A stretch of 58,551 nt of DNA, from the IMG/VR virus record IMGVR_UViG_3300015371_000041, positions 1 to 58,551 of that record, one strand, 5' to 3'. Source of the stretch: a virus. The translations under genes and the position numbers were made by a program. Shown in pieces: positions 23,731 to 58,551 of the stretch; position 1 is the first letter of the stretch; the number at the start of each line of letters is the position of its first letter. The notes beneath the pieces are model-generated. The model was not told the DNA's origin. It saw only the letters and a list, made by a program, of their open reading frames with translations, and ran no database searches.

Positions 23731-24032
23731 TAAGATATAACTAGGAAATCGAATGGCCCAAGTACGGGAGTCTCGGGCAAGAGTGTAAATTTAACAAGCA
23801 GTTCATAACGATCGGGTATGATGTCTACATCGGTAGTATCAATCAGACAGTGAGCTGTCATACCAGCAGGTACAGTAAGATCAGCATTGGTCTCAGCAAT
23901 GACAATCTCTTTATCTGATTCCCGACGTACCCAAAACTTAGGAGCAGTACCATCAAGATCAGTCAACTCACCTAGGCGATCACGCACATTTACGGGTACA
24001 TGCTCAACAGTCCCTTTGACCAGTTCAATCAA
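23730..24032 (-). CDS. Small Ig-like/adhesin module protein, 100 aa
   Basis: Beta-rich protein ending in GPFDFLVIS. It shares its layout (xxTxPKFxV..., ...LxDTTxx..., GPFDxxVI end) with the gene at 27047-27367, so the two look like paralogues. Similar domains occur in phage baseplate upper proteins. TTG 24032 is the likely start and overlaps the repeat-protein gene by eight bases. Confidence 0.6.
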   Translation of the reverse strand: MIELVKGTVEHVPVNVRDRLGELTDLDGTAPKFWVRRESDKEIVIAETNADLTVPAGMTAHCLIDTTDVDIIPDRYELLVKFTLLPETPVLGPFDFLVIS

Positions 24033-26055
24033 CTTTAGACCACCACCTTCTGAAAAGGATAGACGCGGAATATTTCAACTCAAGCATTTTACTAAAATAT
24101 CGGTTGTATGCGAGACTATCCTTCCAACGCATCTGACCAAGAGATGCTATCAGGTCATAAATTTTATATAGTTCATATGCGAAAGGTGTCAATCGCAAAT
24201 AGATGGTGGCTTCATCTTGCATTACCGAAGAATATTCCTCAGTAGCAAAAGGCACCAATCTAATAACCTCAGTATTAGTATCTACATAGGCAGCAACATC
24301 ATCAGACGATGGAGTCTCAAATAGATACACTACATTGGAATCATCGCTGATACGCTGTTCTGTGGTAGAAGGTTCGAGTCTTACACGTTCAGTGTCGGCA
24401 TCAATAAAAATAACAAACTCGTTACTAAGAACCGTAAATGCAAGACGTTCAGTAGCGGCATCAACAAAGGCAGCTATATCGGCCGATGTGGGAACAAGGT
24501 TAACTGTCCCGGTATCTGCGTCAGAAAATACCGCTGCATCGGTGTAGGTTGGAATGAGAGAAAGTGTTTCAGTATTGGCATCCACGAAGTCTGCGGTATC
24601 AGTGGCGCTCGGTAAAAGGGAAAGAGACTCAGTTGCTGCATCTGTAGTAGAACCTCCGAAGGATTCATCAGCAGAAGGTGTAAATCTTAAATCTTCGGTA
24701 TTTTGATCGATGTAATCCGCAATATCTGAAGTTGAAGGCACCAGGGTAATGCGTTCGGTGTCAGCATCCGTTCCTTGGAAACTTTGCGTATCCGATGGAG
24801 TAAGACTAAGTAGTTCAGATGCTGAGTCCGACGCTTCGAGAATATCACTCGCAGAAGGTGATAGCGATATACGTTCAGTGTTTGAATCAACGTAGTCTGC
24901 TTGGTCGGTACTACTAGGTGTAAGTGCCAACGTTTCTGTAGCCACATCATAAGTAGTATGTTCCTCCGCAGTAGTAGAAGGGACAAGTGCCAACACTTCC
25001 GTATTACTATCTACAAAATCCGCTATATCCGAACTAGATGGAGTGAGGAATAGTGTTTCGGTATCAGCATCAGTATAATCAACGGAGCCGGCTTCTTGGC
25101 TATCAGTACCCGAAGGTGTTAATAGGAGGTATTCCGTATCCGCATCATAGGTTGTATGTTCTTCGGCGGCACTAGGTGTAAGTACCAATGTTTCTGTATC
25201 CGCATCGAAAGTGGTATGCTCTTCCGTTGCAGAAGGTGTAAGTGCCAAAATCTCAGTATTACTATCTACGTATTGAGCAGTATCAGTACTAGACGGAGTA
25301 AATGATACTCTCGCATCCGAGACGGGAGAATCAACTCTAACCGCAAAAATTAGGTCCTGAGTTACGGGAGTCCATGAGGCTCCAGAGTTGGCGCTATTCG
25401 AGTTAGTTCCATTAGGATAATTTCCTGGTGACAATGATCGACTTATCCCGTAAGCATTCAATCCATCAGTTATCGTCCGTTTGATAACTATCCAATAACT
25501 AGTCGATGCTGTTAGTGAGAGATATGCACTCAACGGTACGTTCGTAATGCTCTCTACAGCCCCACCTATATTGGCAGCAGGAATAGTACCACTGGCAAGC
25601 ACGGTTCCACTAGGGGCACCAGCATTATCGGTTTGTATTTCCCACGGTAGCGCATCTGTAGGAGAACCAACGAGCTTATATATCTTTAAACTAAACGACT
25701 TCATAAGCCCGTTTGAGTTTAACATAAAGGATTGTGCTCTCTGCTGATTACTGTCAGACAGAGTAATAACATTCAGCGTTGGAGTTCCGAGCAAGTCAAT
25801 ATCATTAGCTCCGACCTCAACAAACTGAGCAGTTTCTACAGCACTTATAGTAAATGCCAATCGCTCAGTTGCCTCATCTACAAAGTCTGCTGCTTCTACA
25901 CTACTTATGGTAAATGCTAGACGTTCAGTATCAGCGTCATAAGTTGTATATTCTTCCGTAGCGGAAGGCGTTAAGGCTAACCTTACTTCGGCCGCATCTA
26001 CAGTTTCTAGAACGTCCCAAGTGTCAAACCAAAACGCCTTCCAGCTAATAGGCAT
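24025..26055 (-). CDS. Repeat-rich tail/adhesin protein with inserted beta domain
   Basis: 676 aa. Built of about 20 imperfect repeats of two alternating kinds, e.g. TYDADTETLVLTPSAAEEHT and IADFVDSNTEVLALVPSTT. Between repeats, residues ~85-245 hold a different domain (RAQSFMLNSNGLMKSFSLKI, WEIQTDNAGAPSGTVLASG) resembling choice-of-anchor/fibre-associated beta domains. The C-terminus is non-repetitive and basic (QMRWKDSLAYNRYFSKMLEL). Likely a surface fibre or whisker. Confidence 0.75.
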   Translation of the reverse strand: MPISWKAFWFDTWDVLETVDAAEVRLALTPSATEEYTTYDADTERLAFTISSVEAADFVDEATERLAFTISAVETAQFVEVGANDIDLLGTPTLNVITLSDSNQQRAQSFMLNSNGLMKSFSLKIYKLVGSPTDALPWEIQTDNAGAPSGTVLASGTIPAANIGGAVESITNVPLSAYLSLTASTSYWIVIKRTITDGLNAYGISRSLSPGNYPNGTNSNSANSGASWTPVTQDLIFAVRVDSPVSDARVSFTPSSTDTAQYVDSNTEILALTPSATEEHTTFDADTETLVLTPSAAEEHTTYDADTEYLLLTPSGTDSQEAGSVDYTDADTETLFLTPSSSDIADFVDSNTEVLALVPSTTAEEHTTYDVATETLALTPSSTDQADYVDSNTERISLSPSASDILEASDSASELLSLTPSDTQSFQGTDADTERITLVPSTSDIADYIDQNTEDLRFTPSADESFGGSTTDAATESLSLLPSATDTADFVDANTETLSLIPTYTDAAVFSDADTGTVNLVPTSADIAAFVDAATERLAFTVLSNEFVIFIDADTERVRLEPSTTEQRISDDSNVVYLFETPSSDDVAAYVDTNTEVIRLVPFATEEYSSVMQDEATIYLRLTPFAYELYKIYDLIASLGQMRWKDSLAYNRYFSKMLELKYSASILFRRWWSKVD

Positions 26056-29408: not shown

Positions 29409-29972
29409 CTAACCCGCCTTCAATGTAGGCGTTACCTTTTCAGTATCTCCGTTAGCAAAGGTTCGTGTAGCCGCAGTATCACCTGCAAAGTAAAGCTGCC
29501 CTGCGTTTAGTGTGCTACCATCAGTAAGTACCCAACTGTTAGCACCGTTAGGGCTAGGTGCGCCGCTGAATGCACCAAACGTAACCTGATCGGCCGTTGT
29601 TGACTGGCCTCCGGTGCTAAATGTTGAATCAAACGTCGAGGTACCCCAGTCAATGCTTCCTGTGTTAATGCTCTTGGCAATTGTCTGCCTAGCATAACCG
29701 TTAGCTGTAGTGCTACCTATCTCGTTAACATTGCTTCCCGAAACAGTAGCACTCCAAACACTGTTTCTAGCCATGTTGCTACCTGTACCTACAACTGTGG
29801 TGCTAAGTGCTAGTGTCCAGCTTGCAGGTGGCGTAATGCTTCCGCTGGCACCCATCACATAGTCAGTAACCAACTGGCTCATTCTCTGAAAAGCCAAAAC
29901 AGCATTCAGTTCTCTATTATGCTCAAGCGGTGTTTCCTTATGGTGCAAATGCATCCCTGGCTCGTTTAGCAT
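29409..29972 (-). CDS. Phage structural protein (fibre-associated), 187 aa
   Basis: N-terminal helix then a Thr/Ser/Gly-rich beta domain ending DGSTLNAGQLYFAGDTAATR and FANGDTEKVTP, a pattern common in tail-fibre-linked proteins of actinophages and cyanophages. Likely a virion surface protein. Confidence 0.7.
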   Translation of the reverse strand: MLNEPGMHLHHKETPLEHNRELNAVLAFQRMSQLVTDYVMGASGSITPPASWTLALSTTVVGTGSNMARNSVWSATVSGSNVNEIGSTTANGYARQTIAKSINTGSIDWGTSTFDSTFSTGGQSTTADQVTFGAFSGAPSPNGANSWVLTDGSTLNAGQLYFAGDTAATRTFANGDTEKVTPTLKAG

Positions 29973-30428: not shown

Positions 30429-30857
30429 TTAATGCTCTACCTCCTTCTCTTCAAACTGCTGTCTGTGTGCTTCCGCTAGCGCGTGCGGTATTTCATCATC
30501 AATAACTGCATCTACAATGCTAATTATGCCTAATGCCGCAAGTCTTTGGCTAGCTATAGGTGTGGCAAAACGGCCACTTAGTCTTAGTAGCCGGTGTTCA
30601 TCTTCAGTGTGCTCTTTGGTAGCATGAGTAGCAGCCCAATCGTCACGCCTATTTTTAGCTAGTTTCGCTATTAGGCTGTTCTCAGGCTCGTGTCCTGGTG
30701 GTACCCGTAAATCGAGCGGCCCTTGAAACACACCGCCACAGAGCCTACATGCAACGTAAGGTTTGTTACTGTCGAATACATTTTCAGGTACACCAAAAAC
30801 AAGACCTGCCATAATTACTTGCTTAAGGCTTTGTACCTTACGATTAATTAGAGTCAT
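30429..30857 (-). CDS. Putative zinc-binding protein, 142 aa
   Basis: CRLCGG (residues ~37-42) followed later by HATKEHTEDEH could form a CCHH-type metal site. Basic N-terminus. Overlaps the upstream gene by 14 bases. May bind nucleic acid near packaging; uncertain. Confidence 0.6.
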   Translation of the reverse strand: MTLINRKVQSLKQVIMAGLVFGVPENVFDSNKPYVACRLCGGVFQGPLDLRVPPGHEPENSLIAKLAKNRRDDWAATHATKEHTEDEHRLLRLSGRFATPIASQRLAALGIISIVDAVIDDEIPHALAEAHRQQFEEKEVEH

Positions 30858-31218
30858 TGCTCTTCTCTATAGCTGCAAACATTCGAGCCAAAGGATCATT
30901 GTCGTCCTTAATACTAGTTGCACTAGCAATAGCCCAAATAGTGCGAGCGGCAGCGAGCCGCGTGGTATCTTTATCGGCTCCTGTAACTAGTTCAGCTATC
31001 GTACTAAGAGCAGTAGACAAATGCTGCAATGCAAATGCCCTAGCTTTAGTTCGTACTTCGTCTTGGTTCTCATCCCCGGATATCTGTGCATCAAGCATTC
31101 CGTCAATTACACGGCGCTGTTTATTAACTAGATGCATTAGTTCCTTTTGGGATGCATCATCTTCACTTACAAGCTTATCTATCTCTGATTCATCAATGTC
31201 TTTAAACTCGTCACTCAT
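30844..31218 (-). CDS. Possible terminase small subunit, 124 aa
   Basis: First gene of the late block, with GCGGAGG upstream. The sequence ALSTIAELVTGADKDTTRLA, followed by AARTIWAI, resembles the C-terminal pattern of several phage small terminases (A-L-x-T-L...APxxxRxAAAxxIL). Acidic N-terminus. No other gene looks like a small terminase, and the large subunit lies 7 kb downstream in the same transcript, so the assignment is tentative. Confidence 0.4.
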   Translation of the reverse strand: MSDEFKDIDESEIDKLVSEDDASQKELMHLVNKQRRVIDGMLDAQISGDENQDEVRTKARAFALQHLSTALSTIAELVTGADKDTTRLAAARTIWAIASATSIKDDNDPLARMFAAIEKSNDSN

Positions 31219-31246
31219 TGGTACCTCCGCAGGTCATGGATATGGT
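31218..31246 (+). promoter_or_regulatory. Candidate rightward promoter for the non-coding region and early block
   Basis: TTGGTA (31218-31223), 17-bp spacer, TATGGT (31241-31246). The -10 is the same as at the 41.8 kb promoter. Transcription would start near 31253 and cross the whole non-coding region into the early block. The -35 is weak. Confidence 0.4.
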
Positions 31247-31252
31247 ACACGC

Positions 31253-32010
31253 GCGAGAGCCTATACAGGTCTCAGACTCAACTCTAAAGTATGTTACAAA
31301 ATTTCGTTGTTATGGCTAAAAACATTTTAGGGGGTCAGATACATAGCGGGAGATAGTGTACCATAGTCCTATATCGCACGGATACAGTCCCTTAGCGTTT
31401 CAATAGGTCATGTGGCACCTTTCTATCAACTAGGGCTAGCGTGGCTACAGCGAGGCAAACACGGGCAAATAGAGGGTGTCCTGAGGCATAGCCGTGCCAG
31501 GGAGGTCAGACCAGGGTAGGCCGAATTCGCTAGAGGTACTCGCGCGCGGGCGTGTAACAAGGGGAAAATTTAGTAACAATCGACTCGACCAAACACAAGG
31601 AACGCCAAAAACAACCTAAGACACCTTGCAATAAGTGCGCTATTTGCGAACTATTCGGAGCCTGTAGGTTGAATTCAGGGGTTGACAGAAACGAGACTCA
31701 AACCGTTCTTCATACACACGCCAGCCGGGAGGCAGCACACAACACGCACACAAACCGACACACAACGCGAGAGGCAAGCGAAAGCCTCTAGCTAGGTTGG
31801 ACGCAAAAAGCCGAAAGGCTGTAGTCCTAGAACACACGGCCTAGCGAACGCAAACAACGTGCAGGACGGATACGCACTAGTGAAACCGAACAAGCGCAAA
31901 GGGTGACACTGAGGGCTAACGGGTCAAGCGAAAACGGATAGAGACTTCCAAGTAGCTAGAAAGACCGAGCCAAGGTAAGAGCCACGCATACGCGCGAGAG
32001 TGAGAGTAAC
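31253..32010 (+). ncRNA. Putative large structured non-coding RNA
   Basis: No convincing gene exists from 31219 to 32133. The plus strand is AC-rich with many short helices: AGCC-GAAA-GGCT near 31809-31820 inside a GGAC/GTCC helix; AGAGGC/GCCTCT around a GCGAAA loop (~31770-31790); CAAGG/CCTTG (~31597-31628); a GCAATA/TATTTGC hairpin (~31628-31648); CACG/CGTG (~31835-31860); and TGAC/GTCA (~31904-31926). Long-range matches include GCGTGGC (31439-31445) with GCCACGC (~31980-31986) and CTCGCGCG (~31539) with CGCGCGAG (~31990 and ~31250). GNRA loops read on the plus strand. Size and style resemble large phage RNAs such as ROOL or GOLLD, but I cannot assign a family; it could also contain the origin. 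Confidence 0.5.
31348..31362 (-). promoter_or_regulatory. Candidate leftward promoter element for the late block
   Basis: The minus strand reads ATGGTACACT, an extended -10 (TGG TACACT) like TGG TACAAT at 33.3 kb. No good -35 is seen 17 bases upstream, so it may need an activator or be false. It lies ~135 bases before the first late gene. Confidence 0.25.
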
Positions 32011-32066
32011 TAGAGGGGGTCATAGACCATTCAATGCGGATTATTCCGAGTAACCCTGGCTACCTA

Positions 32067-32093
32067 CCTAGTAGGTTGAATGAGGGGTTAGGC
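32067..32093. repeat. 27-bp inverted repeat, left arm
   Basis: Pairs with 32449-32475 with 24 of 27 matches, including a perfect 15-bp run (AATGAGGGGTTAGGC, 32079-32093). A looser direct copy (GTAGGTTGAAT...GGGGTTGA) lies near 31663-31686. Confidence 0.8.
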
Positions 32094-32133
32094 GTCTTTT
32101 CACACAACGCACCACTAACCCGATTGGAGAATC

Positions 32134-32442
32134 ATGGAATTCGTACTCAACGCAATGAGTGAGGCAGAGATCGCGGCAGAACTGAATCGCTCGCAGGGAC
32201 GCAAGAGCGAGTGGAAGTCAGTCCTGGCGGAAATCCTCGCAAGCGAGGGTTGCGACATCACGAAGGCATTCGGCATCCGGCTCGCATTCCCCGGCCGCAA
32301 GAATGCAAGTGTTGTCGCAGGACTCCGCAAGGCTGCAAAGGATGCAAAGCACGACACGCTCACGATTCGGGTTACTCCCGATACAGACGACAGCGTGAAC
32401 ATCACGAATAGCGTCAAGGTCGCAGCAAGCGACAGCAAGTAA
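32134..32442 (+). CDS. First early protein, 102 aa, unknown
   Basis: GGAGA precedes ATG. The protein starts MEFVLNAMSEAEIAAELNRS and has a helical N-terminal part, GRKNASVVAGLRKAAKDAKH, and a beta-like C-terminus (TLTIRVTPDTDDSVNITNSV). Codon choice is more GC-rich and more regular than in neighbouring genes (CGC, GGC, ATC, AAG), as in a highly expressed gene. It is enclosed by a 27-bp inverted repeat. No family recognised; possibly an early host-takeover or DNA-binding protein (inference). Confidence 0.75.
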   Translation: MEFVLNAMSEAEIAAELNRSQGRKSEWKSVLAEILASEGCDITKAFGIRLAFPGRKNASVVAGLRKAAKDAKHDTLTIRVTPDTDDSVNITNSVKVAASDSK

Positions 32443-32448
32443 CACCTT

Positions 32449-32475
32449 GCCTAACCCCTCATTGAGCCAACTAGG
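32449..32475. repeat. 27-bp inverted repeat, right arm
   Basis: Right arm of the inverted repeat that encloses the single gene at 32134-32442. It ends a few bases before the ribosome site of the next gene, so an mRNA stem between the arms would lie close to that start. Confidence 0.8.
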
Positions 32476-32484
32476 GAGGTAAAA

Positions 32485-32718
32485 ATGGCTAGGCCGAATC
32501 GTGAAATAGGGCTAACGGTTCCGCAGGCAGTAGGGGGGCCGGTTCCGGCGTTTAGGGAGGATGGCGGAAGGCGGAAGGGTCGCAGTATGAAAAAGTATCC
32601 GAGGGGTAGCAAGCGCGGTTATGTAACCGTGGAACAAGCTATGGCTGCAAAGGCAGAACATGAAAACGTCATTTACGATTCAACGCTACGTTGTCTCGTA
32701 TACAAGCGGGAGGTTTAG
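32485..32718 (+). CDS. Small basic protein, 77 aa
   Basis: GGGAGG site. Very basic (RRKGRSMKKYPRGSKRG), with a helical C-terminal half. Probably binds nucleic acid; otherwise unknown. Confidence 0.7.
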   Translation: MARPNREIGLTVPQAVGGPVPAFREDGGRRKGRSMKKYPRGSKRGYVTVEQAMAAKAEHENVIYDSTLRCLVYKREV

Positions 32719-32965: not shown

Positions 32966-33202
32966 ATTTACGGGTGAATCTGGATTGTCACTAAGACTTT
33001 CCGATTTATCCGTAAATTTCTTTAATGTACCAATTTTTTTGTATAAGAGTGGTGGTCAAAGTAAAAAAGTTTCTTCTTAGAAGGGGTAGGGAACGTGTAC
33101 CAGAAAAGAGTCCGGTAAAGTCGTTAAAATTTTTCCGGTTGACTATGACCACCACTCTTTCTTGGTACACATTCCCTACTTTGTCGAAGAAGAAACTTTT
33201 TT
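32966..33202 (+). ncRNA. Structured element with two mutually exclusive pairings
   Basis: ATTTACGG (32966-32973) pairs with 33010-33017. Then two large pairings cross: a 14-bp perfect one (33045-33058 with 33146-33159, AAGAGTGGTGGTCA), and a long hairpin made of a perfect 16-bp stem (33063-33078 with 33187-33202) followed by a ~27-bp stem with few mismatches (33085-33111 with 33154-33180). Both cannot fully form at once because positions 33154-33159 are shared. There is no plausible gene here. It may be a switching RNA or leader, or a site for a DNA-binding protein. Either strand is possible. Confidence 0.6.
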
Positions 33203-34634: not shown

Positions 34635-34919
34635 ATGACCGAGCAGCAAGTGTTTAGCGCATTGCGTAAGGTAATAGCGGATTGCGATAGGTTGCAAGAC
34701 ACCTATCCGCCATGCCAACTACGCGAAATGCTCACACAAGACGGTTACAATAACGCCGAGTGTGACGAAATAATCACCTACTGTGCCGATAACGGATTTA
34801 ACTATTGCATTGATCCGATCATCAGGCATAAAGATGGTGAGTATTGCCCCAAGTTTGCAAGTTATTGGGGACCAGATCAACTTAAGAGTCGGATTGATTG
34901 GCTCGTACCTCGCACTTAA
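34635..34919 (+). CDS. Hypothetical protein, 94 aa
   Basis: Helical, Cys-containing, ends with YWGPDQLKSRIDWLVPRT. GGGAGG upstream. Lies one base before the SprT-like gene. Unknown. Confidence 0.7.
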   Translation: MTEQQVFSALRKVIADCDRLQDTYPPCQLREMLTQDGYNNAECDEIITYCADNGFNYCIDPIIRHKDGEYCPKFASYWGPDQLKSRIDWLVPRT

Positions 34920-34920
34920 G

Positions 34921-35475
34921 ATGGAATTCTTCATCGAACCGATAACTGACGAAGTTGAAATTGCTAAGTATTTGGGTGAACCAAATCAAGCAATTAAAGC
35001 TGAAGTCGATGCTGCAATAGCTAAAGCACTTAGCAGATTTGAGGAACACTTTGATCGAAAGTTTACGCCCCCTGTGGTGCTTTATGATCTAGTAGGGCAT
35101 ACTGCGGGATGGGCTATTGGTATGCATACGATACGCTTGAATATCGAATGCTTATACAACGAGTACCATGACGATATGATAGAGCGTATCGTACCGCATG
35201 AAATAGCTCATATTGTGCAAACAGTTCTTTATCCCGATAGTAAACCGCATGGTGGGGAATGGCAATACCTTATGCACATACTAGGTTTGCCAGCGGATAG
35301 AACGCATAGCTTTAAAACAAAAGCAGCGCGTAAACACCCTAGACCATACATTTACCGTTGCTATTGTAAAGAGCGGCCTATAACACAGCGTTTGCACAAC
35401 AGAATCCAAAACGGGAGTGGACACTACTGCACAAGTTGTAGAGGTACACTTACCTTTGTAAGAAAGGAGGATTAA
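34921..35475 (+). CDS. SprT-like zinc metalloprotease
   Basis: 184 aa from ATG 34921. HEIAH (93-97) with H110 in KPHGGEW is the SprT/Spartan active site (HExxH...HGxxW). The C-terminal part has a zinc ribbon (YRCYCK and HYCTSCRG). Host and eukaryotic relatives act on DNA-bound or DNA-crosslinked proteins; a phage enzyme may clear proteins from replicating DNA (inference). Confidence 0.85.
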   Translation: MEFFIEPITDEVEIAKYLGEPNQAIKAEVDAAIAKALSRFEEHFDRKFTPPVVLYDLVGHTAGWAIGMHTIRLNIECLYNEYHDDMIERIVPHEIAHIVQTVLYPDSKPHGGEWQYLMHILGLPADRTHSFKTKAARKHPRPYIYRCYCKERPITQRLHNRIQNGSGHYCTSCRGTLTFVRKED

Positions 35476-38450: not shown

Positions 38451-38523
38451 GGGCCTATAGCTCAATGGTTAGAGCACCTGTCTCATAAACAGGAGTGTCT
38501 AGGTTCGAGTCCTAGTAGGCCCA
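38451..38523 (+). tRNA. tRNA with CAU anticodon (Met or, more likely, Ile2)
   Basis: Complete cloverleaf: acceptor GGGCCTA/TAGGCCC, D arm GCTC/GAGC, anticodon arm CCTGT-CTCATAA-ACAGG, T arm CTAGG-TTCGAGT-CCTAG, discriminator A; CCA is not encoded. The anticodon is CAT. The acceptor has C4-G69 and C5-G68, which are known to favour lysidine modification by TilS in E. coli, so it may read ATA (Ile) codons, which are frequent here. Elongator Met cannot be excluded. Confidence 0.93.
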
Positions 38524-45770: not shown

Positions 45771-45797
45771 AAGGGGAGGTATAATATACCTCCCCTT
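45771..45797 (+). promoter_or_regulatory. 12-bp stem-loop after codon-biased gene
   Basis: AAGGGGAGGTAT (45771-45782), AAT loop, ATACCTCCCCTT (45786-45797). Shares GGGAGGTAT/ATACCTCCC with the stem at 46189-46227. Confidence 0.7.
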
Positions 45798-46156: not shown

Positions 46157-46455
46157 CTGTAGTCTCCCGTAGGCTGCTCGCGGAATTAGGGAGGTATGGT
46201 GGGTCTGTGCAACTCGCTATACCTCCCCCGCTTAAAAATTTTCCAATTAGAGGTTTCAAACTGCGAGCAATTGGAAGAACATATCTTGAATGGGATACAC
46301 CACCCTCGTGATTATCAATATCTCCGCCGCAGTAGGTATTGGTAACGGTGTATCCCATTGAGGATATGCTCTCTAACCTAATGAGAAGTAACCTTCTCGC
46401 CCACCTTTCCCAAAGGACAGGACGGGGGCATATCCTCAGTACCATGTAAGCTAAC
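46157..46455 (+). ncRNA. Highly structured leader upstream of the transglycosylase gene
   Basis: About 300 nt with no gene. Stems in order: GGGAGGTAT (46189-46197) with 46219-46227; TTCCAATT (46241-46248) with 46269-46276; AATGGGATACACC (46289-46301) with 46347-46359, enclosing an 11-bp inner stem (46312-46322 with 46335-46345); GAGGATATGC (46360-46369) with 46428-46437, enclosing GAGAAG/CTTCTC (46383-46398) and CCTTT/AAAGG (46404-46416) as a multi-way junction. The ribosome site of the next gene follows 18 bases later. Could be a riboswitch-like leader, attenuator or separate RNA. Confidence 0.65.
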
Positions 46456-58434: not shown

Positions 58435-58551
58435 ATGAACACTTTTCTTGATATCAAACGTAAGCACCCGTTAGCTAACTGCGAAGAATGTCCGTTATTC
58501 GATCAACCCCTAGTGCCCACAGTGGGTCCAGCGAATGCTAAGTTAGCTATA
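58435..58551 (+). CDS. DNA polymerase I with UDG-like domain, 5' part
   Basis: True start of the polymerase gene. ATG at 58435 begins MNTFLDIKRKHPLANCEECP, and the frame runs off the window end. The last 39 bases repeat bases 1-39 in the same frame, so the gene continues there. The CxxC pair (residues 16 and 19), with the Cys residues equivalent to 85 and 97 in the joined protein (the VLC and IKC segments), fits the four-cysteine [4Fe-4S] pattern of family 4/5 uracil-DNA glycosylases. The ribosome site (GATGTGG) is weak. Confidence 0.9.
   Translation, partial: MNTFLDIKRKHPLANCEECPLFDQPLVPTVGPANAKLAI
58513..58551. repeat. Terminal repeat (right copy), circular overlap
   Basis: Right copy of the 39-bp repeat at the window ends, with two mismatches relative to bases 1-39. 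Confidence 0.85.

Follow-up and report, generated by a model that had tools for sequence, protein, structure and literature searches.

The first early gene of the phage genome described here is tightly enclosed by two complementary arms, and the stem that they form is very probably a selected RNA structure of the plus strand. The left arm is located in the last part of a 0.9-kb gap between divergent genes and the right arm lies beyond the gene that follows the gap. Together with eight relatives in which the same enclosure is found, this gives nine phages that keep the pairing and not the sequence, an unusually clean case of selection on the structure of a messenger RNA.

The window, that is the whole stretch of DNA that was analysed, is a complete virus record of 58,551 bases. 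Its ends (1-39 and 58513-58551) overlap over 39 bases at 95%, which suggests a circularly closed, complete genome, probably the case here, or a terminally redundant one. The block below 31,218 reads leftward and contains the genes for terminase, portal, head maturation protease, major head and tape measure proteins, and the block above 32,134 reads rightward and contains those for a helicase, an exonuclease, a Sak4-like annealing protein and a primase; a DNA polymerase gene is found at the start of the record. The gap at 31219-32133 is the point at which the two blocks diverge (Table 1). A SprT-like metallopeptidase gene (Pfam PF10263) lies in the early region at 34783-35475. Beside the terminase gene, an open reading frame of 676 codons (24025-26055) has internal repeats at 24913-25299 (132 bp, 77%), and a search for family matches to its product returned none of weight. 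A near-perfect palindrome of 27 bases is present at 45771-45797.

Table 1. Features of the divergent gap and the adjacent early region (positions are those of the window)
Feature	Position	Strand	Basis
First leftward gene (124 aa), bordering the gap on the left	30844-31218	-	ORF list; homologue in L043
Promoter-like element, core TACAGTCCCT at 31383-31392	31333-31406	+	Core pattern in relatives; alignment
Putative untranslated T-poor leader, T 15%, GC 53%	31395-32060	+	No ORF; z of about -0.4 to -0.6 on the plus strand
Partial copy of the left arm, in the leader	31661-31683	+	Local alignment score 31
Left arm of the gene-enclosing stem	32061-32093	+	29 of 33 positions Watson-Crick, one G.U
First rightward gene, 102 aa	32134-32442	+	ORF list
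Right arm of the stem; its GGAGG (32475-32479) is the ribosome-binding site of the second gene	32449-32481	+	
Second rightward gene, 77 aa	32485-32718	+	ORF list
Long early-region stem, 49-nt arms (33063-33111/33154-33202), 42-nt loop	33063-33202	+	

Relatives were located in viral contigs through the neighbouring leftward gene at 29409-29972. This gave 48 loci, of which one is near-identical to the window and several are mutually redundant; in the relatives, genes for proteins of 151 and 142 amino acids stay syntenic. An alignment of 187 amino acids used as a query returned no new relatives, the L050 protein returned only L050 itself, and the search for relatives in bacterial genomes found none. 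The stretches fetched from cultured Microbacterium and Arthrobacter phages with a similar terminase are one-directional and hold one minimal repeat each.

The stem around the first early gene

The window has four strong inverted repeats, whereas eight shuffled windows have none. The unit bounded by the two arms, 32061-32481, folds with a z of -8.0 to -8.3, against -0.4 to -2.4 for eight control stretches, and the inside of the unit alone gives -2.9. An early open reading frame is enclosed in the same way in eight relatives (L022, L025, L033, L043, L045, L050, L052 and L055), where frames of 101-143 codons sit between arms of 22-29 nt with loops of 343-478 nt, and where the enclosed units have z values of -4.0 to -9.4. 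In all nine cases the arms are just outside the frame and the frame is on the plus strand. The other relatives tested have no gene-enclosing stem of such strength, so that gene enclosure is common in the group and not universal.

The arms of the relatives are unrelated in sequence, yet within each phage they are complementary. L025 and L050 encode enclosed proteins that are 41% identical and have entirely different, complementary arms, and the same is found for L052 and L055, the enclosed proteins of which are 26% identical. Judged from these sequences, both arms have changed with the pairing kept; as the arms cannot be aligned between phages, this is not covariation pair by pair. The imperfect positions also carry a strand signal. 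Read as G.U pairs on the plus or on the minus strand, those of the gene-enclosing stems divide 13:2 and those of all early stems 45:20. The counts are small, but this bias towards the plus strand points to plus-strand RNA rather than to DNA as the structure that is maintained.

The enclosed 102-residue protein has no match in Pfam or PHROG and is weakly similar to early proteins of the relatives. Its predicted structure has a mean pLDDT of 54, which is too low for a fold search, and a sequence search of the PDB gave only designed helical proteins and marginal matches.

Proposed processing of the early message

RNase III cuts the early mRNA of T7 at stems that have no strong sequence consensus, the stem mattering more than the sequence (PMC8708148; PMC4858673), and 12 bp suffice for a minimal T7 RNase III substrate (PMC8708148). 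With arms of 33 nt in the window and 22-29 nt in the relatives, the stems described here exceed this minimum, and none of the features tested on the stem is specific for RNase III. By analogy, there is about an even chance that host RNase III cuts the stem as a double-strand processing site, both the enzyme and the benefit being presumed. The rightward early transcript would be started by the conserved element at about 31383-31392, would cross the T-poor and weakly folded leader and would then enter the stem at 32061. Pairing of 32061-32093 with 32449-32481 would form an imperfect double-stranded stem of 33 nt around the complete first early gene. Cleavage of this stem by the host enzyme would free a short separate message for the first gene, parted from the leader and from the genes that follow, and would make the right-arm ribosome-binding site of the second gene accessible.

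Among known systems, the nearest parallels are the processing stems of the T7 and the pre-rRNA type. The T7 sites, R1.1 among others, are likewise double-stranded stems between early phage genes, without strong sequence consensus and often near the start of the next gene. Whereas R1.1 is a local hairpin between genes, the stem here reaches over several hundred bases and has an entire gene inside it; the other early stems of these phages carry heads of 40-130 nt, and cleavage here is a prediction. The precursors of 16S and 23S rRNA resemble the unit in that complementary flanks form a long-range stem of about 20-30 bp around the product; the enclosed product here, in contrast, is a protein-coding phage message, for which processing is predicted. 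A further likeness is offered by the hok mRNA, in which the 5' end of a message pairs with its own 3' end. Unlike hok, the unit described here has no toxin-antitoxin feature that could be found, and its stem is much longer. If the stems are processing sites, the early mRNA cutting of the T7 type would extend to a large group of uncultured phages and would include stems closed around an entire gene. A more far-reaching proposal is quite unlikely: that an early message with its whole coding region in a long-range stem is released with its ends paired, with pairing alone selected across uncultured soil phages and with a U-poor, rapidly changing leader in front that serves its own purpose, and thus represents a new form of gene control.

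The stem could also act without being cut, as a device for stability and translation that shields the first message at either end and blocks the ribosome-binding site of the second gene until it is opened by ribosomes or by a protein. The position of the GGAGG of the second gene within the right arm in the window suits this proposal, as does the fact that many early stems end beside a ribosome-binding site. In all eight relatives with a gene-enclosing stem, however, the next ribosome-binding site is outside the right arm, so that closure of this site is not a shared feature, and we regard a device of this kind as possible and on balance unlikely.

The divergent gap and its putative leader

The initial annotation presented the gap as a non-coding region with dense RNA structure and as a candidate large phage RNA of the ROOL or GOLLD kind. 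The non-coding part of this description holds, in that the plus strand of 31219-32133 has no open reading frame of at least 60 codons; the longest has 41, and a single GTG-initiated frame of 65 codons is found on the minus strand. The plus strand had been called AC-rich, and a bias is indeed present, the gap being rich in A (31%) and poor in T (18%), with T falling to 5-12% per 100 nt over 31719-32018. GC amounts to 51% in the gap against 43% in the rest of the record. The matching segments that had been pointed out, GCGTGGC at 31439 with GCCACGC at 31981 and CTCGCGCG at 31539 with CGCGCGAG at 31250 and 31991, are likewise in place. Complementary 7-mers are modestly more frequent than by chance (39 against 23 in shuffles, a count reached by 1 of 100), and these words do not sum to a stable fold.

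The dense structure was not borne out. The minimum free energy of the gap is at the level of shuffled sequence (z of -0.05 on the plus and 0.55 on the minus strand), with 150-nt windows that start in the gap ranging from +3.2 to -2.6 on the plus strand, and in place of many helices with GNRA loops a single GNRA hairpin with a stem of at least 4 bp is found where 0.5 are expected. The covariance-model search that had been suggested gives no Rfam match in 31150-32520 even at E <= 5, and a search of the window and 14 relatives at the Rfam gathering thresholds gives no match to ROOL, GOLLD or any other family. With a fold z of about zero as well, the likeness to ROOL and GOLLD is confined to the occurrence of an extensive non-coding stretch in a phage. 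ROOL and GOLLD are often found near tRNA islands (PMC12286853), whereas the gap has no excess of structure and no tRNA array, a single tRNA-Met (38451-38523) being located 6.3 kb away. The gap is thus not a giant structured RNA. What survives of the proposal is that a rightward non-coding RNA segment is plausible and that a structured RNA starts inside the gap, the gap itself not being ornate. A resemblance of the segment GATACAGTCCC to group I introns was dropped because Rfam gives no match. Neither a blastn search of the gap against public phages nor an alignment to the gaps of the relatives gave a match, none of the latter being alignable with the gap of the window.

With a simple gene caller, divergent gaps of up to 2.6 kb appear at the corresponding position in most contigs that extend that far. 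On closer inspection many of these gaps hold a small first gene, so that the lengths based on the caller are overestimates and the long empty gap is a property of only some members. A 71% homology between the gaps of L040 and L046, considered as a non-coding RNA, was rejected on finding that it consists largely of small genes missed by the caller.

With middling confidence, we consider the gap of this tailed soil phage to be its divergent control region together with the untranslated leader of a rightward early transcript. From the position of the conserved element, this leader would start at about 31395. The leader of L045 is also poor in T (14%). With regard to a long-range stem that closes the 5' end of the leader, the window does not stand out, and the only outliers among the relatives are L012 (z -4.4) and L021 (z -2.6). 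The leader contains a partial copy of the left arm, the alignment score of which was reached in none of 1000 shuffles (best 30); a duplex of this copy with the right arm is possible at -24 kcal/mol, the true arm giving -51.7. In addition, the word GGGTTGACAG (31679-31688 in the window) recurs in the leaders of L012, L033 and L042. The L012 copy forms the start of a good sigma-70-like site, TTGACA-17-TAGAAT, and in the window no -10 box stands behind it.

Two other origins for the leader can be considered. It might be a decayed first gene, the frame of which has been lost in the window, since it occupies the position that the first gene has in relatives, 50-70 nt behind the element. Proteins encoded by the first genes of L038, L020 and L016 give weak tblastn matches in one frame at 31685-31783 (E 0.01-0.12), but such matches are at chance level and T-poor sequence favours the residues concerned; L045, which has a gene-enclosing stem, also has a long leader without an obvious gene. 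Decay is therefore a tentative and rather unlikely explanation. Release of the leader as a separate non-coding RNA that works independently, for instance as a decoy or regulator, would fit the lack of an open reading frame, the GC content above the genome mean and the T-poor strand, but with no excess fold stability, no Rfam match and no sequence conservation in the relatives it is decidedly unlikely.

A promoter-like site, TTGGTA-17-TATGGT, had been noted at the start of the gap. The sequence is present, but it overlaps the ribosome-binding site of the leftward gene on the minus strand, and a consensus scan of the region gives no sigma-70-like site for the gap, with a total at the level of shuffles. 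A different element emerged from word statistics over 24 gaps, in the form of TACAGTCCCT. Its core, T[AGT]NAGTNCCT, is found in 23 of the 32 loci that extend far enough, within the 450-nt stretch tested, where 0.047 are expected per locus. The element, TAnAGTnCCT, lies close to the left border of the gap and is often preceded by TGGAGATA..GGnGACGGT and followed by cGTGCAAG. Its alignment, which leaves out L014 and L037 for their poor fit to the wider context, reads TGGAGATAnnnGGnGACGGT, about 25 variable bases and then ATAnAGTnCCTcGTG. The window matches the core and follows the upstream consensus only loosely. The element occurs once per genome, and in L012, L016, L020, L031, L034, L038, L040 and L046 a small first rightward gene is located about 50-70 nt behind it. 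Searches of viral contigs with one pattern of the element gave two known members and unrelated matches, and with a second pattern unrelated matches only.

A TANNNT core is kept across the relatives. As no -35 box is conserved in the alignment, promoter function is something that we infer: the element is probably a rightward promoter in which TANNNT serves as the -10 box and an activator site lies upstream. Its recurrence offers a handle on early transcription in the relatives. A single-copy element could have another role, and the gap might be a replication origin with the element as its initiator site. The minimum of the cumulative GC skew does fall at the gap, but it coincides with the change in gene direction, which explains it, and no iterons were found, so that an origin is improbable.

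Other stems of the early regions

A DNA element such as an invertible cassette or a transposon end, which the short gene between two inverted repeats might suggest, is hardly credible as an account of the repeat, given that the arms are wholly different between relatives where a recombinase would need shared sequence, that the enclosed gene has the same direction in 9 of 9 cases, that no recombinase is encoded inside the repeat and that the wobble pairs are biased to the plus strand. The stem as a plus-strand RNA structure fits a wider pattern. Early regions have 0.35 strong stems per kb and late ones 0.013 per kb. Of the 56 stems that score at least 15, 20 have an end no more than 25 nt from a ribosome-binding site, whereas 8% of random positions lie so close. 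Many early stems are of 20 bp with branched heads and stand directly before sequences such as GAAAGGAGG. The stem of the window is thus one of a system of stems along the early transcript.

Several smaller observations concern these stems. In the window, a stem formed by 33045-33062 and 33142-33159 overlaps the long stem at 33063-33202, such that the two are partly mutually exclusive, as in a switch, and a further strong stem at 46276-46372 has 26-nt arms, a 45-nt loop and a branched head. Early stems of L012, L014, L018, L033, L034 and L057 share a symmetric internal loop with GC opposite GG, for example in ..TGCAT.. / ..ATGGAG.., while the remaining stem sequence differs; this loop may be a recurrent RNA motif. 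Many early stems of L025, L027, L043, L052 and L055 have GTTAGTGA or a variant opposite TCACTAAC and stand just before ribosome-binding sites. Finally, G[CT]ATACnGC is found in or beside stem heads towards the right edge of the gap in L016, L020, L040 and L046, and also in L038.
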